Below, one piece after another: positions 26,858 through 64,000 of a stretch of 64,000 nt of DNA; position 1 is the stretch's first letter; each line of letters opens with the position of its first letter. Made by a program: the position numbers and the translations under genes. Source of the stretch: Homalodisca vitripennis (Eukaryota > Arthropoda > Insecta > Hemiptera > Cicadellidae); contig NC_060213.1 of assembly GCF_021130785.1 (NCBI RefSeq), positions 117,805,001 through 117,869,000 on the forward strand. Reading direction: 5' to 3'. The notes under the pieces are model-generated. The model was given only the letters and a program-made list of their open reading frames with translations. It did no database searches and was not told the DNA's origin.

Positions 26858-29321
26858 ACATGAAATGAAAAAAATGAAAATGAAATGAAAAATTCTTTAT
26901 TTTTACAGGCAAAGTTAGGGCCACATGGCCCTTTCTTACACTTAACCTGTTGCAATGTAAAATTTAAAACATTAAATAAATATTACCTAAGAATAAAACA
27001 AAACATAATAAAGATAATAAAATAAAGAAATAATTACATTTACACAAAGTAGTGAAATTAATGTAATATTTTAACGTATAATAATTAAAATTTAACACAT
27101 TAATAAATTAACCATCTCTACTATTCTTAAAACATAATATAAATTTATATTTTTAATATACAAATAAATTAAAGTATTTATTGCTAAATGAACTTTTTCA
27201 CACACAATCTCACATTCATCCCTCTGCCAGTGTCACGCCCACAGCATCTCAGACCGGAACTGCCCCGGCTAACCGTTCAAGATACATATCTTTCAGTTTC
27301 GCCACAAACCGGGAACTGCTATCGATGGAAGTAATTGTTTGGGGACGGGCATTCCACAACCTACAAGCCATTACATGGAATGACTTATCAAACACTGCAG
27401 TCCTGTGCTGAGGCATTCTCAAAATGTATGAGCCAGAGCGAGTGCTTCTTACACCTACATGAGACACAGATTTAAAATATTCAGAAAAATATCTTGGAAA
27501 ACCAAATTTCAATATTGAATGAACTAGTTTTAAAATTTTGATGGAACTTTGATCTTTTAATTTTAGAATATTTGACTGAATATAGTACGGTGTGATGTGC
27601 TGCTCCCGTCTCACATCGTAAACGTAACGTATACAGTAGTTTTGAGTTCTTTGCAGCTTCTCACTCAGTACTATGGTCATATCATTGATCACGGAGTTAC
27701 AGTAATTGAAATGTGGAAGTACGAGTGATTTAGTCAAGAGCAGCTTGATATGTTCTGGTAAAAATCGTTGTAAACGTTTCAGTGAGTGAATAGATGTGAA
27801 AACCCGTTTACAAATCTCCACAACAGCGTCAGTCCAAGTCAAAGTCGAGTTTATAGTCAAACCAAGATCCTTCACCTTGTCGTAGTATGGCAGGGTGTTA
27901 CCATTTACATTTACGTTTCAATAGTATTGAAGTTTATTGAGTTTCGTAAACGAGAGTGACAAATAATGATTGGTTTCGTTTTTGCATGGTTTAGTCTCAG
28001 GCCATGATTTTTGGACCACATAACGATATTTGTAATGTCACTATTGATTTTGGTGATACATTCATTAATGGAGTCAATTTTAAAGTGTGAATAGATTTGC
28101 AGGTCATCAGCATACATGTGATATGAGCTATGTTTAAGTACAGAATGAATGTCGTTCACGTACAGTACAAATAATAAAGGACCAAGAATCGATCCCTGTG
28201 GCACCCCACAAGTAACAATTTCCCAGTCCGAAGTCATGTCATCCACTTTTACACACTGCCGTCTCCCTGACAGATAAGATCTCAGCCAAGTTAATACATG
28301 ACTAGAAAACCCTATTAGCCTTAGTTTAGCTAGCAATATTTTATGGTTTACGCTGTCGAAAGCTTTTGAGAAATCGAAAAGAGTGAGAATTGTGCCCTGT
28401 CTGTGATCCATAGCAAGCCTAATGTCATCCGTCACTTTTAAAAGTGCAGTTTCTGTACTGTGGATGGTCCGAAAACCAGATTGATAGTCACTAAATATGT
28501 TGTTGTAAGATAGATATTCAGTGAATTTGGCAGTGCACAATTCTCTCTAGGCCTTTAGATAATGCAGGAAGAATATTTATCGGCCTATAATCTGAACATG
28601 ACGCTGGTGCTGAAATCTTATTAAGAGGACGGACAAAAGCAGACTTCCATTGTGATGGGAAAATACCACTCCTAAGAGACGTGTTGAAAATAAATGTGAC
28701 TATTGGAAGGACAGCAAATAGAATATTCTTTATGAGGCGTATTGGGATGCCATCGTACCCAACAGCATTACTGCGAATACGGCGTATAGCTTTCAACACG
28801 TCACCTTGTATCACAGGTTTAAAAGTAAACTCAGGATAACCACAACTACGGCGAGGTAGGTTTTGAAGATGTTTTAAGTAGTCCTCCACTTTTTCCTGAC
28901 TGAAACTTTGACTACAAGATGTAAAAAATTGGTTCAACTCATTCAGAGGTATAAGAACTGGCTGTGAAATACGTTGTTTTCCTATTTCAAGGCTTTTAAC
29001 CTTACGCCATAAGTCGCTTGACGACTGTTTCCAATTCTCAAAAAGACCTCGAGTATATCTCAGCCTGGAATTACGCAGAAGTTGTTTAACCCTGTTTCGA
29101 ATTAAACGGTACTGATCCATAAGTATCTGGTCATTAGAGCGCCTCGCTCTTCGATATAAGCTATCGCGATGGGCCATCAGGCTAAGAATATCCTTTCTCA
29201 TCCATGGCACTGGGTGCCTCTTATTTATTCGTTTTGTCACATAAGGAGCATGTTTATCATAACCAGATAAAATTTATTTATTAAAACCATCCACCATGTC
29301 ATCAACAGAGTCAAGATTCTC
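26858..29321 (-). mobile_element. 5'-truncated CR1/Jockey-group LINE inserted in a satellite
   Basis: A 2464-bp insertion flanked by the 7-bp target duplication ACACTTG (26851-26857 and 29322-29328). Removing it and one duplication restores the 170-bp satellite spacing to within one base. On the minus strand the element begins inside the endonuclease-to-reverse-transcriptase linker, runs through the reverse transcriptase, and ends with a 3' untranslated region of about 390 bases containing a GGGCC/GGCCC stem-loop, CTAACTTTGCCTG and an AATAAAG, then an A/T-rich tail. The upstream endonuclease is missing through 5' truncation. Confidence 0.92.
27249..29240 (-). pseudogene. LINE ORF2 reverse transcriptase, two frameshifts
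   Basis: Three minus-strand frames form one decayed protein. The first (29240-28518) holds the linker and early fingers with FTFKPVIQGDVLKAIRRI, VGYDGIPI and SDYRPINILPALSK. The second (28540-27911) holds QSGFRTIHSTETALL, the catalytic FDFSKAFDSVNH with its first aspartate, GVPQGSILGPLLF and the YADD box in HMYADDLQIYS. The third (27875-27249) holds KDLGLTINSTLTW and the C-terminal thumb region. Each join needs a single small indel, near 28530 and near 27890. Both catalytic motifs are intact, so the copy is fairly young. The layout is that of the CR1/Jockey group, which I infer from motif wording rather than a tree. Confidence 0.92.
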
Positions 29322-30229: not shown

Positions 30230-31160
30230 TGTTTTATTTTATTTTATTTCCAACGGATCAACCATAGCAAAAGCGAGCATAATAATTTATAATTATAGTA
30301 AAAAGTTAGCAACAATGACTAACACAAAACTAAAAAAACAAATGAGGCAACATCAATCAATATCAACAAAAGGCAACAAGGAACAGCCGTAAATGCTAAA
30401 AAATCAACAAGCAGAAACAGATAAACTATATGAGCAATATAAAAATGATAAATTGGATATCCTAACAACAATATAAATAAGTAAATAACAATAACAAAAC
30501 AAAAATGCCCACTGCCAGGCAATAAGGCACTTATGGGTATGGCCCCCTAAAACCAACCTGAGAAGCACATACAGCTCTCTTGAAGGAAGCCAAGGAAGCG
30601 CAGAAAAAGTCCATGTGTTCTGGTAGCGGAATTGTTGGGTAGAATATATATGCCACCTAGAAGCATTTTCACACCAGGGCACAGATGGATGGAAACAAAG
30701 ACAGCTTCCAAAGGAGTATCAGTGAGAACCTCTGAGCACTTTATGTTTTGTGATATAGCAACCATAACCCCACCTCCACTAGCCTTTTCACTGGTTTCGG
30801 GACTTCTATCTTTCCTGAACACCTGGTGGTTAAGAAAGCCAAACTCACTTGTGCATATGCTCGGTGTAAGGTTAGTTTCAGTGAGTACCAAAATATCGTG
30901 CATGTAAGAAGCTACCGATTGACGAAGTTCAGTAAGTTTGGACCTCCGTCCATTGACATTTTGATAGTAGATGTCTAGGTAAGTTGATCCGTTGGAAGGT
31001 ATTAGTTTTTTTACTTTTTAGCAATGTGTGGGGTACTATTATTTTACTTGATGGTGAGGTAATTTTCACGATGATGTGTTCGTAAATTCTTAATACGTTG
31101 AACATAGAGTCTTTAAATTTCGTACATACGTTCCTCTTGGTCCAACGAAGAACCATGTTG
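30230..31160 (-). mobile_element. Internally deleted LINE: endonuclease joined to 3' end
   Basis: On the minus strand the element begins near 31160 with a partial upstream frame, continues with an APE-type endonuclease N-terminal part (to 30547), then passes directly into T-rich 3' untranslated sequence and ends at 30230-30262 with GTTGGAAATAAAATAAAATA, a 3' tail typical of the CR1/Jockey group. The rest of the endonuclease and the whole reverse transcriptase are missing. Such a structure fits internal deletion or template switching. Confidence 0.6.
30547..30970 (-). pseudogene. LINE APE-type endonuclease N-terminal fragment
   Basis: The minus strand from about 30970 reads IYYQNVNGRRSKLTELRQS, then HDILVLTETNLTPSICTSEF, DRSPETSEKASGGGVMVAI and LLGGIYILPNNS. 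These are the landmarks of the N-terminal half of APE-like endonucleases in CR1/Jockey LINEs: the QN pair, the LTET segment with the catalytic glutamate, the GGGV strand and the IY-P-N segment. The catalytic histidine-bearing C-terminal half is missing; the frame runs out at 30547 in 3' untranslated sequence. The enzyme normally nicks target DNA to start insertion. This fragment cannot. Confidence 0.8.
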
Positions 31161-55661: not shown

Positions 55662-56740
55662 ACCCGCTATTGTTGATAGGCTTGGAGAGTTGTCCTATTG
55701 TCGCATAAGCTCGTGTGCTATGTCTGGAAGCGGGGATATTAGTTACTCTAGGGAATAACCAGACACCAAATGTACGCCAGTCATTGTTGACAGGCTTGGT
55801 GAGATACTAATTGTCAATATTGTAGCAAATGCTCGTACGCTATATTGTTCTGCCTTTGTCTAGAAGCGAGCAGATTACTTACTCCAGGGAATAACCATAC
55901 ACTAAATGTACGCCAGTCATTGTTGACAGGCTTGGTGAGATACTAATTGTCAATATTGTAGCAAACGCTCGTACGCTATATTGTTCTGCCTTTGTCTAGA
56001 AGCGAGTAGATTACTTACTCCAGGGAATAACCATAAATTAAATGTACGCCAGTAATTGTTGACAGGCTTGGTGAGATACTAATTGTCAATATTGTAGCAA
56101 ATGCTCGTACGCTATATTGTTCTGCCTTTGTCTAGAAGCGAGCAGATTACTTACTCCAGGGAATAACCATACACTACATGTACGCCAGTAATTGTTGACA
56201 GGCTTGGTGAGATACTAATTGTCAATATTGTAGCAAACGCTCGTACGCTATATTGTTCTGCCTTTGTCTAGAAGCGAGTAGATTACTTACTCCAGGGAAT
56301 AACCATGCACTAAATGTACGCCAGTAATTGTTGACAGGCTTGGTGAGATACTAATTGTCAATATTGTAGCAAACGCTCGTACGCTATATTGTTCTGCCTT
56401 TGTCTAGAAGCGAGCAGATTACTTACTCCAGGGAATAACCATACACTAAATGTACGCCAGTAATTGTTGACAGGCTTGGTGAGATACTAATTGTCAATAT
56501 TGTAGCAAACGCTCGTACGCTATATTGTTCTGCCTTTGTCTAGAAGCGAGTAGATTACTTACTCCAGGGAATAACCATACACTAAATGTACGCCAGTCAT
56601 TGTTGACAGGCTTGGTGAGATACTAATTGTCAATATTGTAGCAAACGCTCGTACGCTATATTGTTCTGCCTTTGTCTAGAAGCGAGTAGATTACTTACTC
56701 CAGGGAATAACCATACACTAAATGTACGCGCGTTATAGTC
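55662..56740 (+). repeat. 136-bp tandem satellite, about 8 copies
   Basis: TGTACGCC (or TGTACGCG at the last) occurs at 55771, 55907, 56043, 56179, 56315, 56451, 56587 and 56723, an exact 136-bp period. A diverged copy precedes at about 55662-55770. Linked variants AAATGCTCG with GCGAGCAG and AAACGCTCG with GCGAGTAG alternate in the first four copies, suggesting a dimer; copies 5-7 are less regular. GTCATTG is found in the outer copies and GTAATTG in the inner ones. Confidence 0.97.
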
Positions 56741-57734: not shown

Positions 57735-57779
57735 TTACAGTAAACATCGTCTATACAATTTACTTGACTGAGATAGTAG

Positions 57780-58035
57780 AACGGGCGCCACTTTAGCGCT
57801 AACATGGGCTCTTATGGAGTTATTCTGGACCAATGAGAAAGCAGCAATGGCGGCTAGGCCACGCCCCCTGCCCCCCTCCCCTCCCCCCTCCAACACCCCC
57901 CGCCCCCTCCTAGACCCCCTGCGACGACCCCCCAGCCAATGGGAGAGCAGCAAGCCCCCCACCTTACGAGAGCGATGGCGGACGAGCGATGGCGGACGAG
58001 CGATGGCGGACGGTGTCATGGCGGATGAACAAAAA
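57780..58035. other. C-rich segment with short GATGGCGGACGAGC repeats
   Basis: The plus strand is very C-rich at about 57850-57960 and includes a CCAAT string. It is followed by three copies of GAGCGATGGCGGAC at 57968-58012. Long frames on both strands here are products of base composition. This marks the left edge of the GC-richer block that extends to the end of the window. Confidence 0.6.
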
Positions 58036-58040
58036 TTTGT

Positions 58041-58116
58041 GTCTCCGGCGGCCGGTATCCGAACCCGGGCCCCTACGAATGCGAGACTGTCGCGCTGACC
58101 ACTGGACCACGGAGAC
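58041..58116 (-). tRNA. tRNA-like element 1 (pseudogene or SINE head)
   Basis: On the minus strand a 7-bp terminal stem GTCTCCG/CGGAGAC encloses an A-box-like TGGTCCAGTGGTC and a B-box-like GGTTCGGATACC. The part between T-arm and acceptor has about four extra bases and the D and anticodon stems are poor, so a working tRNA is unlikely. A tRNA-derived SINE head or pseudogene fits better. Confidence 0.5.
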
Positions 58117-58202
58117 GAGTTGTGCGTGGCGGCGCGATATGGCTGTACGTGCGGCGCGGGGCGCCCGGCGTTATCGGCGATCAGCTGTAGTTTCTTAGCT
58201 TT

Positions 58203-58285
58203 GCGACTGTGGTGCTGCTATCTGGTAGAGACGGCTCACAACATGCTGATAGCGGCAAGTGAGGACGCAAAAAAAAAAGTATGCC
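58203..58285 (+). repeat. Direct repeat, copy 1 of 2
   Basis: GCGACTGTGGTGCTGCTATC through CGGCAAGTGAGG, an A run and GTATGCC; the second copy is at 58318-58400 with few differences. The repeat ends exactly at the GTATGCC that forms the terminal stem of tRNA-like element 2. Confidence 0.95.
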
Positions 58286-58317
58286 TACTGTAACACTATT
58301 GTTCTTAGCGTACGTGT

Positions 58318-58400
58318 GCGACTGCGGTGCTGCTATCTGGTAGAGACGGCTTACAACATAATGGTAACGGCAAGTGAGGCCGCAAAAAAAAAGTATGCCA
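58318..58400 (+). repeat. Direct repeat, copy 2 of 2
   Basis: See 58203-58285. Only this copy continues into a full tRNA-like element. Confidence 0.95.
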
Positions 58401-58471
58401 AGCCATCCAGGATTTGAACCCTGGTCCCGCGGAAACGTAAGACGAGCGCTTAGACCACTCGGTTGGCATAC
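58394..58471 (-). tRNA. tRNA-like element 2 (pseudogene or SINE head)
   Basis: Minus strand: a 9-bp terminal stem GTATGCCAA/TTGGCATAC, an A-box-like CCGAGTGGTCTAAG, and a T-arm CCAGG, GTTCAAAT, CCTGG with the B box GGTTCAAATCC. As in element 1 there is extra sequence between T-arm and acceptor, and no good anticodon stem. The A-box part resembles leucine/serine-type tRNAs. The two elements are related to each other in their middle parts. Confidence 0.5.
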
Positions 58472-58962
58472 CTTAAGAGCTCTCTCGTGTAGGCGAGCAT
58501 AACCTCGTTACAGCACATGGTGACAGAGCGGATACAGCTGTGCATTCCAATGACTACAACTACGCATGTGTGTACCAGACCATCTTACTCTGTAACATTG
58601 TGACAAAGCGAATGAAGCTACACAACACACACATGTAGACACTTACGTAAATCCCACCCCGGACAGGGTTTGGGACTGTCCGGGTGCGTACACCCCCAGG
58701 TTAAGGCATCATATGGTGCACAAAGTCGGTCCAGAGATACTGGTTGTTACACTGCGTACCACATAATGCCTCCCTCCCTTTTTAGGTGGGATTCACTTAC
58801 CTGTATTGACGTCCATCGTCTGCTTGTATATGGCGAGCCACTGTAGACAGAAAGAACAAAAACACATTGCCGACCGCGATGTAAAAATAGCCGGGAGGCG
58901 GGGGCGTTGCAGAAATAACACACGTGTTGACGACCGTACTACATTTATTAAAAGCGTTCTGA
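58472..58962. other. Non-coding; hairpin, splice donor and poly(A) signal
   Basis: A perfect 8-bp hairpin, CCGGACAG and CTGTCCGG, with a 9-base loop lies at 58659-58683. The minus strand has a consensus splice donor ACAGGTAAGTG at about 58793-58803. AATAAA on the minus strand at 58944-58949 lies 14 bases past the stop codon of the gene at 58963. Minus-strand frames at 58793-58988 lead to the donor but show no motif. Confidence 0.5.
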
Positions 58963-59283
58963 TTACATACATTTCCAAATCTTAACATCTACCAAAAGTC
59001 CGTTAACACCCGTACATCTAACTTTATACCTTTTAGACGACGTCATTTCTTGTAGATCACTGTCATCTAAAGTCTTTTCAAATCTCACCGGTAGAAATGT
59101 GACGGCTGTTTTGGTGCTGTCCACTTCTACGAGTAACATCACTGCCTTCCGGTCAAATTTAGTGTCCACCTTCTTTGCCTCCAGGATCCTGTAGCCAGCT
59201 TTCCGTGTCAACTCTTTTATCGCCATCTTTGGTGTGGGTTCACCATGCTTCTCCAGGGACGAAAGCTTTGTAGAAAGTTCCAT
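58963..59283 (-). CDS. Small conserved protein, possibly OB-fold-like; function unknown
   Basis: A 106-residue frame with an ATG in good context (A at -3) and a poly(A) signal 14 bases after its stop. The first 25 residues are polar. From residue 31 the pattern YRILEAKKVDTKFDRKAVML, VEVDSTKTAVTFLPVRF, then RYKVRCTGVNGLLVDVKI alternates hydrophobic and polar residues like a small beta-barrel. I have seen small arthropod proteins of this layout, with a T(K/R)F/YG-like turn and an FLP-R motif, but know of no assigned function. A single-strand nucleic-acid-binding role would suit a replicating element but is speculation. It is the last gene of the minus-strand cluster, separated from the rest by about 1.2 kb of repeats. 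Confidence 0.6.
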   Translation of the reverse strand: MELSTKLSSLEKHGEPTPKMAIKELTRKAGYRILEAKKVDTKFDRKAVMLLVEVDSTKTAVTFLPVRFEKTLDDSDLQEMTSSKRYKVRCTGVNGLLVDVKIWKCM

Positions 59284-59745
59284 TTTTCAATCTGTAAAGG
59301 AAAACCGACAATCTGTATAGCGAATAATCTTAACAACGAGTTCATCGTAAAACTGTTAACTTGGCTAGCGGATTGAGAATAACTATGCGTGAGCAACACA
59401 CCGCAAATAGAGAGCGCAGTCGAATATCTTAAAGAAAACAGTTAAATGTGTAGTGTAGTCACTTACCTGTAATGAGAGCGTCGACACGTAGACGAAGAGT
59501 GACTGTGACGATCACCTTGCCACAGGTAGTATATACACCTTGGAATGAAAGTGGAGGTAGTCGCGGCTGTGGTCGTGGCAAACTGCCAAGCTGAATATAG
59601 ACAGGAATGCAGCGTAGTTGACCCACGTTTCCATCACCACGGTAGGCTTTGAGCCAGGCCGTAGGGGTCTCGGCGCGTTTTTTATTATAGTGAGTTTCCC
59701 CAGGAGGCCTAATCTCACTTAACAAAGAACACTGAACACGTTCAA
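59284..59745. other. Non-coding; second consensus splice donor (minus)
   Basis: Minus-strand TTACAGGTAAGTGACT at about 59457-59472 resembles the donor at 58793-58803 over 13 bases (TACAGGTAAGTGA). Minus frames of 68 and 88 codons lead up to it but start with non-ATG codons, and I recognise no domain. Confidence 0.4.
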
Positions 59746-60434
59746 GTTCTCAACTCAATGCCGAACCTCTCCGTGTCACCTCTCTTTGCGAGTGGGCCCC
59801 AACCATCGCCCACTCTGTCGTGATGGCCACTCCATAACAAATTTGCCACCTCCGAAAAAGTAAACTTTTTTTTTTTTGGTGTCCTTGCGAGACCGTTTAG
59901 CGAGTCCGTTAAAGTTCTCAACTAAATGCCGAACCTTTCCGTCTCACTGTCAAGTACTCGCAAAAACTTTTATATTTTGCAAGTGTTTTTTCTGCCCCAC
60001 GTGAGCTTTGAAGTTTTCAACTTAATGCCAAACTCCTTAGCTCTCGCAAAGACATTTTTTCCAGGAGTAGTTCTCAACTCAATGCCGAACTCCTCCTCCT
60101 CCTTCCGAGAAGGACATTTTTGTACTAATCTACATTATACTACTAGGCGGACGCGACAAGTCACTTTACTTGGTGAAGCCTTTCAATATGACCTGTCTCA
60201 TCCAGGTGAAGCTGAAGCATCTCTCAGTCGGTTTCATACAAGCCACTTTACTTGGAGAAGCCTTTCAATGTGACTCGTTGTAACTTACAGAGGATGAGCG
60301 AGATCCGATTCTCAGCAAGATTCCTACAAGTCACTTTACTCAGAGAGGCCTTTCAATGTGACTCGTGAAACACAAGCAGAGAATCGGTTGTTGACCACTT
60401 TACTCGGTGAAGCCTTTCAATGTGGTCTATCGTA
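59746..60434. repeat. Two families of directly repeated motifs between cluster genes
   Basis: Family 1, four copies starting near 59746, 59913, 60012 and 60069: TTCTCAACTCAATGCCGAAC with a following CT-rich part. Family 2, four copies near 60157, 60239, 60327 and 60394: CACTTTACTCGGTGAAGCCT followed by TTCAATGTG. The family 2 copies are 67-88 bases apart, and a partly conserved GATCCGATTCTCAG-like block lies between them. Repeated motifs between genes of a virus-like element could be regulatory or replication sites; that is inference. A plus-strand frame across them (59926-60273) is an accident of the repeats. Confidence 0.75.
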
Positions 60435-60460
60435 AAACTGGAGTTTTTCTACGGGACACA

Positions 60461-60877
60461 TTACGCTTCATCACTATAATAATTACAATGGTCCTGAAGA
60501 AACTTTCCACTAAGGTTTTGGTACAATAGTATGTAATCCCAGTCCAGCTGTTCAGCAAAATCGTGTATAAACTGCTCCGATAGAACCTGGTGACGACTTA
60601 TTACTATCCAACAGTAAGTGTCAAAGTTCGGCATCATTTCACGTAAAATGAATTCAGGAAGGCGAGCATTTTCCAAAATCGTGGTCCAAATTACTTTATG
60701 CTGAAATATTCTCAACATGTCAAACGAAAAAGTATAATTTGCCGATAAAAGCTTCCAATTCAGAAAGCGACTAAATTTCAAAATGAACGCATCAGTGAGC
60801 ACACCGACAGGCACTTTGGGCTCTCGAGAAATGAGGTCCCATACAGCAGCGGTAGCAGCAGCAGCTGTACTCGCCAT
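60461..60877 (-). CDS. Short tryptophan-rich repeat protein
   Basis: 138 residues from the ATG at 60877 (CAGCATGGCG, good context). An alanine-rich start (MASTAAAATAAVW) is followed by four degenerate units of about 24 residues. Each has a W near its start, then an L-S or similar pair and F/I positions: NWKLLSANYTFSFDMLRIF, IWTTILENARLPEFILREM, CWIVISRHQVLSEQFIHDF, DWDYILLYQNLSGKFLQDH. Repeats of this kind are known from proteins of large DNA viruses and related elements; their function is not established. The gene starts 45 bases after the stop of the preceding gene, in the same orientation. No poly(A) signal is seen right after its stop. Confidence 0.7.
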   Translation of the reverse strand: MASTAAAATAAVWDLISREPKVPVGVLTDAFILKFSRFLNWKLLSANYTFSFDMLRIFQHKVIWTTILENARLPEFILREMMPNFDTYCWIVISRHQVLSEQFIHDFAEQLDWDYILLYQNLSGKFLQDHCNYYSDEA

Positions 60878-60922
60878 GCTGACACGATGTAATCTCAACA
60901 GTGACCGTGAACAGAATGACTA

Positions 60923-61417
60923 CTAAGCGGACTGGTGAGTCTGTTTATTCAGGATTTCAAAACGACATCTAGCAGCGTGCATTGCACACCGTACATCTTC
61001 ATCACGGCCGCTGTGTTGCGGTAGGGAGCAGGAAAACCGATGCGTTCCTTTACAACTGCATAATGTACTACTGTCATAACATGCCAGGTTGTCCAGCTCA
61101 CAAACGTTAGAGTGAAACCGTCTTAAAAAATTCGCTTTCTCATGACCACGTGTATAAATTATGGTAAACGGCTTGCACAGGTTGCGAATGACACTTCCAC
61201 TGTAAGGGAAATCGCCTTCTTCCCACAAGATCTTGTGATAGTTCTTCTCTAACCACAGAGCTGTTGTACGCATTTTCTTGTTTAATCTCTCCCTAGGAAA
61301 CGGAGGTTTGAAAACAATTTGACATTGAAATGAATTAGCCACAATGGCAAACTCTTTGATTATAAACGGTTTTTTGTTACCTTGAAAAGCTTGAAATTCA
61401 ACTACTGCCACATTCAT
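60923..61417 (-). CDS. Conserved arthropod virus-like-element protein, possibly nuclease-like
   Basis: 164 residues from the ATG at 61417, chosen because the conserved part begins at once (MNVAVVEFQAFQG) and codons further upstream lack an ATG and overlap the previous gene more. Blocks in order: FIIKEFAIVANSFQCQIVF, KPPFPRERLN, a TTALWLEKNYHKILWEEGDF block with paired W residues, IIYTRGHEKANFLRRF, and a Cys/His-rich tail (CACYDSS-like, CSCKGTH, CAMHAARCRF). I recognise this as a recurrent uncharacterised arthropod protein. The beta-strand start with an acidic residue recalls DEDD-type exonucleases, but I see no full set of catalytic residues. It overlaps the upstream gene by 20 bases in another frame, typical of compact viral genomes. 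Confidence 0.68.
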   Translation of the reverse strand: MNVAVVEFQAFQGNKKPFIIKEFAIVANSFQCQIVFKPPFPRERLNKKMRTTALWLEKNYHKILWEEGDFPYSGSVIRNLCKPFTIIYTRGHEKANFLRRFHSNVCELDNLACYDSSTLCSCKGTHRFSCSLPQHSGRDEDVRCAMHAARCRFEILNKQTHQSA

Positions 61418-62155
61418 CGCCGCTGGAATGTGGCCAACGTTTGTAGCACTGGACGTCATCAAAAAGTCTGTCGCAAAGGTGACGTGGTAAAGCCTCAGGC
61501 GGATCAACGTAACCCTCGTCCGGACTTCCGTTGTTAGGCAATGCTAACACATCACCGACGTAAGATCTCAATAGATCCTCCGTTAAAAACAACTCGTTGA
61601 TTTGACGTGTTACGCAGGGCAGACAGTTGGTGAACTGAGTCCACTCGTCTACGGACAGAGTTAATGTATTCTTTCCGTCGTACAGTACAACGTACTGCTG
61701 ACCAAATACTCTACGTACCACCATATTCTCTCCACTTTCGCTTTTAGAACTACTGAATCTATGCACGCCTGTCGATTCCAAGAGTCCGGTGATTTGGTTC
61801 GCGCACCCTAATAGAATGTTGAACATTTCAGGTTTCCAAAACACAAACGTTCCCTTTTACCTTTCATCAAGATACCGACACCATTGTCGTGATCAACAAA
61901 CAATCCTACAATCAAGTATTTGGAACAATCAGGATTCAAAAAGTAAAGAGACTTTAGAAACACACCGGTAACTAGATTCGGGAGATTTCGTTTTGAGCTT
62001 TTACGGACTGATTTAACCTTGTCTATTTCCATTGGTTGACTCACCAGCTGGTCCTCCTCCTCCTCCTTGAACACAGCATCAGCGACTGTAGCCAGTATGT
62101 CTTCACTCTTTCGCTCCATGATCACGAATGACTCTGTACACCTTGAGCAAACCAT
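61398..62155 (-). pseudogene. Probable PC4-like protein gene with one frameshift
   Basis: Two minus-strand frames make one gene. The first starts at the ATG at 62155 or 62119 and reads an acidic/basic leader, then SKYLIVGLFVDHDNGVGIL. It ends at 61808. The second continues from about 61840 with EMFNILLGCANQITGLLES and then QQYVVLYDGKNTLTLSVDEW, followed by an acidic tail, to the stop at 61398. The frames overlap at TTTTGGAAACC (about 61833-61843), where one small indel explains the break. The strand pattern with a kG-x-LxF and a t-L-s-x-xEW motif resembles transcription coactivator p15/PC4-type folds, possibly two copies; this is moderate-confidence pattern reading. In such elements it could bind single-stranded DNA or affect transcription. 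Its 3' end overlaps the next gene by 20 bases. Confidence 0.6.
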
Positions 62156-62174
62156 TAAGTACCTGACGTATTAG

Positions 62175-62441
62175 TCACTGGCTTATACAATTACATACCT
62201 CCTCCTCCTCCTCCTCCTCCCCTTCTTCCATAGAGGATATCGTATAGTCACTATCATCTTCTATGACATCGTCGTCGTCGTTTTGCACAGTGTTATCGTA
62301 AATTTCATTTAACAGTCTGAATATTTCATCTTTCCGCCTGTCAATCATTACACATACACAAGTGTCTGGTACATCTTGACAATCCGGTGCGGTATACGCA
62401 CATTCGCAATAATGCATGTAGCCATCACTCGTCCGTTTCAT
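62175..62441 (-). CDS. Small protein with Cys-rich start and acidic tail, unknown
   Basis: 88 residues from the ATG at 62441. The N-terminal half is cysteine-rich (MHYCECAYTAPDCQDVPDTC, then CVCV). The middle holds DRRKDEIFRLLNEIYDN, which may form a helix, and the C-terminal part is a run of D and E encoded by GAG/GAT repeats (plus strand CCTCCTCCT at about 62199-62221). The run ends in a potential splice donor, GAGGTATGT, near 62190-62200, so the last residues VCNCISQ may be intronic and the gene may splice into its neighbour. It ends 19 bases before the ATG at 62155. I do not recognise a family. Confidence 0.45.
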   Translation of the reverse strand: MKRTSDGYMHYCECAYTAPDCQDVPDTCVCVMIDRRKDEIFRLLNEIYDNTVQNDDDDVIEDDSDYTISSMEEGEEEEEEEVCNCISQ

Positions 62442-62583
62442 TGTTGTTAACTGGTGATTGCGGATTAATCTACGGATTTCACCGACCAAAATCAAGGACA
62501 ATATTTATCTTCCGTGAACCTTCCATCGTGGCGTCCAATTTGAAACTGAAAGATTCTGTCATTTGCATCGTGTTTTATTCACG

Positions 62584-63778
62584 TTACATCATCTTCTTTA
62601 CCGTGCCCTTGAGCATTGTGTAAACGAAATACGAGTCATGAAGCAGTAGACAGTAGGCTGTGGTATTGGCCTTGAACGCTTCCGTAGCCTCAAATTCTAG
62701 CCGCACATCGACAGGTCCAGACTTGACCGAATCATTTTGGCGTGAACAATCAATCACATACAGAGGTGTTTTATTTTTAAACGTGTCCAGACTGACGTCA
62801 GGCCACCGACGACCGCCTAAATCGCCATAATAGGAGTTTTGAAATCTTACAAACATTTCATAGAATATAGCGGTGTCTCCGTGAATGTTGTCATAAGGGA
62901 AATATTGTGTATTTAAATACAGGCGGATGTTCGATAACTTACAACTGTCAAAAACATGACATGTCTTTCTTTAAGTTGTTTTTCCTTTCTGTCTGGAAAG
63001 CTACAATCACGTATCGTGGTTTCTCCAATTGAGAAGAAGTTTTTATAGTCCATGATTGACGTTCAGTTTGCGGCAGTACAGGGTATTCGTGCAACTCCCA
63101 CGATCTAAACGGTATATGTATTGGAGTATCTTTTTCAACTAGACGTAGGATTTTAGCACGAAACAAGTCGGATACAGAGATGTGAGGCACCCGCCAGTAC
63201 AGATTGGTGATCTTCAACGTGTGGGTCGCTGCGTCATCGCTAATAATAGCGTTGGCATCTGTCGCCGACCGCAGCAGTATCAACTCTTGTTTTACATTCA
63301 CAATTATTCGCTTGTAATCCTCTGCGAATCCCAACAACAACCTTAAAGGCACAGAAAATGAGAATTTGTTCATTTCTTTCTTTCCACCGGGGCCGAACCA
63401 GCATGCATTTTCCAGATTATTTTCGTCTTCCGCACGAGCTGATAATATATTTTTTAACGAACTGGCTATACCTACATTCTTTGTGCGATCAATTTCCACA
63501 CCGCCAATCTCGTATCGGATATCATCAAAGAGAAAAGCGATCGCGTTGTTAACCAGAGACACTTTAGCATCTGTTGTACCGTCAGCTTTCTTACCGCTTA
63601 CTGTACCCACAACGTGTAGTGTGCTTTCAAAAGGAGCTGTTATTAAATCCTGATAACTGATTGGTATCCTTATTTCATCGTTATTATTAAACGTGGTTGA
63701 AGCATACGGATTATGTGTGTGATATTCCAGTCCGGTAATGATTTCATTGTACTCAGCGGGACTCTCTATATCGAGCAT
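62584..63778 (-). pseudogene. Double-jelly-roll major capsid protein, one frameshift
   Basis: Two minus-strand frames form a capsid protein of about 400 residues. The first has YHTHNPYASTTFNNNDEIRI near its start, VNNAIAFLFDDIRYEIGGVE, a FSFSVPLRLLLGFAEDYK block and LEKPRYVIVAFQTERKN; the second has NIRLYLNTQYFPYDN, MFVRFQNSYYG, PLYVIDCSRQND and YCLLLHDSYFVYTM. These are landmarks of the double jelly roll-like family found in Maverick/adintovirus-type elements and many arthropod genomes. The frame is lost near 62955-62970 by a single-base change in length, after which the rest is open to the TAA at 62584. AATAAA follows 5 bases after the stop. No ATG exists before codon 63778; an in-frame TTG at 63814 lies at the expected position of an N-terminal extension, so the original start may be lost. 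Confidence 0.85.
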
Positions 63779-63897
63779 TTTCACGAATTGCGCCGGTGTT
63801 AACTTTAAAGCCAAGAGAGCGCAAGAAATTTGCGTTAGCAGAAGTTACCACTATCAGGCGCGACGGTCTAATGACCTGAATTATGTTCACACCCTCC

Positions 63898-64000
63898 TTA
63901 AATACTAGACCCATGAGCACCCACTTTCTTTATATGCAACCTCAAAGATAACGTTTCACCTCTGAGATTCACAGGATTGTTGTCTTGATCTTTAAGCTCG
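63898..64000 (-). CDS. C-terminus of a probable minor capsid protein (partial)
   Basis: The last 33 codons of a minus-strand gene that runs off the right edge, stop TAA at 63898. It contains KDQDNNPVNLRGETLSLRLH. A DQxG/N-x-V-x-x-RGE segment followed by a beta strand with RLH is the C-terminal signature I associate with the small capsid-partner protein encoded next to double-jelly-roll capsid genes in these elements, possibly penton-like. It ends 119 bases before the ATG at 63778. Only the end is visible, so the assignment depends heavily on position. Confidence 0.5.
   Translation of the reverse strand, partial: ELKDQDNNPVNLRGETLSLRLHIKKVGAHGSSI

Follow-up and report, generated by a model that had tools for sequence, protein, structure and literature searches.

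Mavericks (Polintons) insert by means of an integrase, replicate by protein priming from inverted ends and are packaged in a double-jelly-roll capsid. Here a stretch of 64 kb from Homalodisca vitripennis was analysed (the window, to whose positions all coordinates refer unless an L-number is given). The gene cluster at its right end is very probably one copy of a Homalodisca Maverick provirus (Polinton, Eupolintoviridae-like) that inserted recently and has since become defective, carrying an accessory module with a probable structured RNA. Elements of this kind are known; what had gone unrecognised is the conserved stretch of hairpins. In the available portion of PMC5803895, the gene content closest to that of the window element is described for Sf Maverick 1 and 2 from Spodoptera frugiperda cells, which have in common with the window family a family B DNA polymerase (PolB), an integrase with a chromodomain, an ATPase and a phospholipase A2 (PLA2)/parvovirus-VP1-like gene. 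Their ORF7 of approximately 400 amino acids (aa) is similar in size to the window capsid. The Sf Mavericks as described in that portion differ in having eight small tandem open reading frames (ORFs); the window family instead bears an additional module after the capsid gene, consisting of the genes for an acidic protein, a 'PC4-like' protein, an E...C...H...C (E-C-H-C) protein and a W-repeat protein, together with a hairpin array. Adintoviruses/Eupolintoviridae, as far as the accessible text of PMC11071296 and PMC12451622 goes, combine PolB, an rve integrase with a chromodomain and a double-jelly-roll hexon, as was seen here. The definition given in the same text of PMC11071296 further requires an OTU-like domain in PolB as well as a reciprocal hexon match; the adintovirus likeness of the Homalodisca element concerns PolB, integrase and hexon alone, and narrow-sense membership would need more.

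Complete elements could be recovered elsewhere in the genome. Three further copies of the 419-aa capsid class (heads, L037-L039; tails, L043-L045) spanned approximately 19.1, 19.1 and 19.5 kb by their coordinates. Each started with AGTAGAACGG and finished with the inverse of AGTAGAACGG, the inverted ends extending over 385-417 aligned columns, and perfect 6-bp target duplications (gagaaa, tacatt and ctacat) were present in 3/3 copies; both features are those of a Maverick. The two inverted ends within each copy differed by 0, 0 and 2 mismatches besides indels, so the insertions appear to be recent. A PolB frame of 1267 aa in L039 matched DNA_pol_B_2 with an E-value of 1.8e-49, and the domain was also found in L037, while the PolB frame of L038 was 1191 aa long. 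The predicted enzyme is a family B DNA polymerase as expected of Mavericks, presumably of the protein-primed type judging from its family. The 315-aa integrase frame of L039 matched rve (E 1.3e-7) and Chromo (E 0.011), and its predicted product is a retroviral-type integrase with a chromodomain, again as in Mavericks and in agreement with the 6-bp target duplications.

The window copy was closely related to these elements. Two siblings with 419-aa capsid frames, L033 and L034, were 99.4% identical to window 58882-62764 and 58882-62728, respectively, and comparison with L033 revealed 16 mismatches and 11 gap columns over 3892 aligned columns. The left edge was exact (Table 1), and the left end of the window copy aligned in inverse orientation with the heads of L037-L039 (400-415 columns, 95.5-96.6% identity). 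In 2-kb rows the G+C content was 0.278-0.372 in 28/28 rows to 56000 and 0.421-0.479 from 58001. On the right, the element continued on the same strand in L026 with the minor capsid gene, a protease-like ORF, a PLA2 gene, three fibre-like ORFs, two ORFs of unknown function, an ATPase and an integrase end. The PLA2 gene matched Phospholip_A2_4 (Pfam, E 4.9e-12), and the ATPase matched Pox_A32 with an E-value of 7.1e-5, at the Pfam cut-off of 22.8 bits; a shorter ATPase frame in L037 reached an E-value of only 0.0074. The predicted protein is an FtsK/A32-like packaging ATPase, as Mavericks carry. The three fibre-like ORFs stood in a row (L026:1635-3224, minus strand) and were apparently related, one of them matching Phage_T7_tail (PF03906, T7 tail fibre N-terminal domain) with an E-value of 2.8e-9. 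The integrase end with a chromodomain lay at L026:6019-6414 (Chromo, E 0.0014). The sequence-only reading, which had seen no polymerase, integrase or ATPase, had nevertheless assigned the cluster to a Maverick/adintovirus-like element and proposed extension past 64000 with searches for these genes. All three could be found in the continuation or in sibling copies, and together with the inverted ends and target duplications they bear out the assignment. Its expectation that the element runs on to the right was correct, and its alternative of an unusual type with a different core gene set was not.

The window copy itself was damaged. The element broke off after L026:6417, the next 149 bp matched the PolB region of the siblings with the match ending at L026:6566, and beyond the break the G+C content dropped to 0.30-0.37, with a DDE transposase farther on. 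PolB was thereby nearly all lost (149-bp remnant), more than half of the integrase was missing and the right end was lost. The capsid, acidic and PC4-like genes were frameshifted compared to homologues or to L033, while the E-C-H-C, W-repeat and small ORFs were open, as in L033. Open versions of the broken genes were present elsewhere in the genome. With hardly any PolB left, less than half of the integrase retained and frameshifts or a stop in several genes, the window copy would be incapable of a Maverick cycle unaided. It is possible, if rather doubtful, that the frameshifts reflect errors of assembly, in which case the copy would be more intact than it seems. Three frameshifts are a high rate for a copy 99.4% identical to its siblings across 3.9 kb, which fits such errors; the loss of PolB and integrase and the stop in the minor capsid gene would remain unexplained by them.

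The major capsid gene of the window was read in two overlapping frames matching Pfam profile positions 1-205 and 202-314 (E 2.8e-67). Because the two frames match adjoining parts of a single profile, the gene carries one frameshift, and the junction was crossed in a single frame by 7/7 capsid homologues read. A capsid homologue was modelled (predicted local distance difference test, pLDDT, 85.7; predicted template modelling score, pTM, 0.87), and the 50 structural matches listed were, by title, all capsids or capsid-scaffold proteins of double-jelly-roll viruses. The predicted major capsid is a double-jelly-roll protein, as in Mavericks, and structure prediction agrees with the fold named in the sequence-only reading. 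The fold also matched those of the virophages Sputnik (23.2) and mavirus (21.4) and of the adenovirus hexon (15.3), as an adenovirus-, virophage- or bidnavirus-like element would give; such an element is nonetheless very improbable, given that siblings have PolB together with an rve/chromo integrase, as well as inverted ends and target duplications of 6 bp, and that the capsid is of the double-jelly-roll and not of the parvovirus type. The minor capsid end at the window edge, as the sequence-only reading had supposed, was real and extended to the right. Its two pieces matched adjoining parts of one gene in 8/8 loci (L018-L025) with 50-54% and 61-62% identity, so that the stop between them represents damage. 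No Pfam family was found for it above cut-off.

A search of the 2.30 Gb assembly for the capsid family yielded at least 126 matches over cut-off, being those scored out of 6201 first-look candidates; 3 had an internal stop and 123 did not. Such intact frames, and the annotation of such proteins as host genes by NCBI (e.g. LOC124361346), are what virus-derived host genes retained for host use would produce. The complete elements with ends and target duplications, the near-identical dispersed copies and the broken state of the window copy contradict isolated host genes at this locus and make that explanation the least probable of all those considered. The many young capsid genes make Maverick activity directly testable in this vector of plant disease.

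Several points weigh against the assignment to a Maverick. The rve match of L039 (32.3 bits) was 0.3 bit below the Pfam cut-off of 32.6, and the Chromo match (16.1 bits) was well below its cut-off of 25.1. The siblings were not all intact, as the L037 PolB was in two frames (1003 + 245 aa) and its integrase frame was short (252 aa). Three names were given by eye from the sequence: the minor capsid as a single-jelly-roll penton and L026:712-1059, with an adenain/Ulp1-like look and no Pfam family, as a protease are candidates, and the 'PC4-like' label is unconfirmed.

An overlooked hairpin array (59.69-60.43 kb), described here in gene sense, separates the W-repeat gene from the small gene. The 25-base H pattern, which was derived from the copies themselves, had 4 exact window matches compared to 0.00 expected at ≤3 mismatches. 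The four H copies were paired in 52/52 cells with 3 pairs changed on both sides, and sliding the partner by 1-3 columns reduced pairing to 27-51%. The G copies were 93% paired compared to 20-47% when slid. Folded singly, 5/8 of the H and G hairpins had z-scores below -2, and the whole 731-nt block folded at z -5.25 (20 shuffles).

Conservation of the hairpins was evaluated in eight sibling pieces (L029-L036), hand-chosen from the 126 matches as two per capsid-frame class (401, 409, 419 and 399 aa). As the pieces form four families in near-identical pairs, counts are given per family. The capsids of the three other Maverick families were 64-76% identical to that of the window over C-terminal stretches of 49-66 aa. 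H occurred in 4/4 families (1, 1, 4 and 3 copies) and G in 3/4; G was not found in L029/L030 at ≤3 mismatches, and a looser search had a single hit within coding sequence of L031, which was judged to be chance. Q, W and S were each present in 4/4 families, S in L031 being missed by the first pattern and recovered by a shorter one. A further hairpin, P (GGCAGGCCTAAnCTCnGTAAG), occurred in 3/4 families and was absent from that of the window. All four families shared the order Q-W-S, preceded by one or more copies of H; in L035 one of three H copies lay between W and S. Pooled H copies gave 12 distinct stems, 93.8% paired over eight positions compared to 29-43% when slid, and 3/5000 arm shuffles were as good. 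For G, 6 distinct stems were 87.5% paired compared to 27-67%, with 30/5000 shuffles as good. Each of the four families had fully paired W stems (8/8). Different Watson-Crick pairs were used at six of the eight positions, and the true arm matching alone, among 24, reached 8/8 pairing in every family. Ten-base words of the L033 block that recurred in each of the four blocks (≤1 mismatch) numbered 69, of which 46 belonged to H, 1 to Q, 6 to W and 6 to S; 9 of the others were A/T-rich runs and 1 was CTCTGTAAGT. Block folding covered the window, L035 and L029; z was -4.22 for L035 (20 shuffles) and -2.22 for L029 (100 shuffles).

On balance, leafhopper Mavericks appear to encode a modular noncoding RNA composed of six or more types of hairpin (H, G, Q, W, S and P), in which the loops are near-fixed, the stems drift freely and covary, the numbers are family-specific and the order Q-W-S, preceded by one or more copies of H, is shared; this would represent a new class of DNA-virus RNA, serving as a multivalent binding scaffold or decoy. 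The noncoding part of the module is most likely transcribed in the gene direction as structured RNA. From the G-U pairs, the internal-loop mismatches and the single orientation we infer RNA rather than DNA. It is unlikely, though to be taken seriously, that the hairpins are instead DNA signals, that is, short palindromic protein-binding or recombination sites such as a Maverick enhancer or replication-control region: covariation demonstrates paired arms and cannot separate RNA from DNA cruciforms, and the copies lie within a single noncoding block. The fixed loops with an internal A.A mismatch in H, however, resemble RNA motifs, the G-U pairs in the H and G stems are not favoured by a DNA palindrome, and the H and G copies of the block share the orientation of the genes.

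Other observations temper the reading as a structured RNA. A DNA-level role would leave a similar trace. The G pattern, shorter than H, gave 5 window matches at ≤2 mismatches compared to 6.09 expected. Within-family shuffles were only suggestive (H 27/500, G 48/500), 3/8 single H and G folds had z above -2 (-0.61, -1.68 and -1.56), and 3/100 shuffles of the L029 block folded equally well. The pooled stems came from related copies, some one base apart, and are non-independent, so that the shuffle figures overstate independence.

That the loops are fixed and the stems drift implies selection for the loop as presented, which fits RNA binding sites, and the juxtaposition of several like sites suggests that they bind multivalently or titrate a protein or RNA of the virus or the host. 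If the family serves as a guide, the integrase would insert linear DNA, PolB would copy it by protein priming from the ends, and the ATPase would fill a capsid made of the double-jelly-roll protein. The hairpin array downstream of the capsid genes would provide putative binding sites in its fixed loops, with the free stems merely presenting them. Adenovirus virus-associated (VA) RNAs and gammaherpesvirus tRNA-like RNAs are structured noncoding RNAs of DNA viruses, each a single compact RNA polymerase III (Pol III) RNA. The window element resembles them in its putative structured RNA and also holds tRNA-like pieces; unlike them, it has many small hairpins of about six loop types in one block. 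The tRNA-like pieces were predicted at a relaxed threshold (Table 1), and no tRNA was found at the ARAGORN default threshold.

Database searches gave no described counterpart. Rfam (4227 families) yielded three weak matches in the window region, far under gathering scores, and no match at E≤1 for L029, L031, L033 and L035. No relative of the capsid was found in IMG/VR, searched singly and as a 24-row alignment, and the H pattern had no match there; shorter G and H patterns hit 3 and 14 contigs, with one match each, which were judged to be chance. The GTDB contigs held no relative. Among the papers listed in a literature search on polintons, adintoviruses and Mavericks with hairpin or noncoding RNA, none dealt with such an array, judging from titles and abstract openings. 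Maverick or Polinton was absent from the main text of an H. vitripennis transcriptome paper (PMC3858241), as were three hairpin loop strings from that of a microRNA paper (PMC4595010). If transcribed, the array would amount to a conserved, structured RNA encoded by an animal Maverick and without a convincing Rfam match, which raises the question of what these elements need RNA for.

The packed minus-strand ORFs listed in the sequence-only reading were all present; the array and the terminal inverted repeat (57775-58173) had been overlooked. Its two middle ORFs are a single frame in L033 and therefore one gene, the PC4-like gene. An acidic-protein-like stretch followed the capsid gene in 8/8 loci (L018-L025; 29-35% identity) and in 6/8 of the pieces L029-L036, not in L031 and L032. 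The PC4-like and E-C-H-C genes followed the capsid gene in 8/8 of these pieces, and the Homalodisca gene models P0126 and P0127 contained apparent PC4-like gene fragments ahead of the E-C-H-C gene. Neither 'PC4-like' nor 'nuclease' as a label gained support from Pfam, where the former gene matched no family at E≤10 and the latter protein matched sub-threshold, unrelated families only, its structure model being unusable (pLDDT 46). A resemblance of the E-C-H-C protein to Maelstrom/DEDD was supported neither by the Pfam scan nor by that model. The PDB was searched by sequence with the capsid, the nuclease and one PC4-like ORF, and no convincing match was obtained. The W-repeat protein matched PHROG families of unknown function, and among the four families compared only that of the window had matches to its gene (2/8 pieces, L033 and L034). 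The small protein was 100% and 99% identical in L033 and L034 and had no match in the remaining 6/8 pieces. Spliced leaders, one of them for the small gene, are suggested by a pair of almost identical sequences resembling splice donors (CAGGTAAGTGA; window 58793-58809 and 59459-59475, minus strand). Another Maverick family contained, close to its end, a possibly host-derived RING-finger protein (zf-C3HC4_3, 7.3e-9; L029:4198-4770, plus strand).

Table 1. Features of the Maverick copy in the window.
Feature	Position	Strand	Basis
Left terminal inverted repeat, starts AGTAGAACGG	57775..58173	.	Alignments to both siblings L033 and L034 end at 57775
tRNA-like sequence within inverted repeat (SINE-like or Pol III-like)	58044..58113	-	ARAGORN, relaxed threshold only
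Second tRNA-like sequence, then T run	58399..58482	-	ARAGORN, relaxed threshold only
Unaligned with sibling L033 (293 bp in window, 605 bp in L033)	58589..58881	.	blastn
Small protein, 106 aa, candidate 5' intron (GTAAGT...TTTACAG) ahead	58963..59283	-	ORF; splice signals read from sequence
Noncoding hairpin array (H x4, G x4, Q, W, S)	59690..60440	-	Pattern matches, folding, pairing
S hairpin, loop TAGGCCTmCTGGGGAA	59696..59713	-	Cross-family comparison
G hairpins x4, loop GGCATTnAGTTGA	59739..60103	-	4 exact matches; pairing
W hairpin, loop GrTGGTTGGG	59798..59807	-	Cross-family comparison
Q hairpin, loop core TTGTnATGGAnTG	59828..59840	-	Cross-family comparison
H hairpins x4, loop ATTGAAAGGCnTCnCnnAGTAAA	60154..60430	-	4 exact pattern matches; pairing
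W-repeat protein, 145 aa, intact	60461..60898	-	phrog_3532, E 2.8e-18; 3 homologues
E...C...H...C protein ('possible nuclease'), intact	60923..61417	-	6 homologues, 42-71% identity, invariant E...C...H...C
'PC4-like' gene (label by eye), two frames; single 253-aa frame in L033	61398..62155	-	Comparison with L033
Acidic protein, frameshifted near start; 130 aa in L033	62175..62568	-	Comparison with L033
Double-jelly-roll major capsid gene, one frameshift	62584..63778	-	Pfam profile, homologues, structure model
Minor capsid (candidate penton) gene end, in-frame stop, runs on rightward	63899..64000	-	Continuation L026, loci L018-L025

Outside the element, approximately 1 kb from its edge, a tandem array of a 136-bp unit (7.4 copies, 97%) was located at window 55721-56729. 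Open frames resembling, by eye, a retroelement of the long interspersed nuclear element type were present at 27249-29273 and 30547-31017 on the minus strand.

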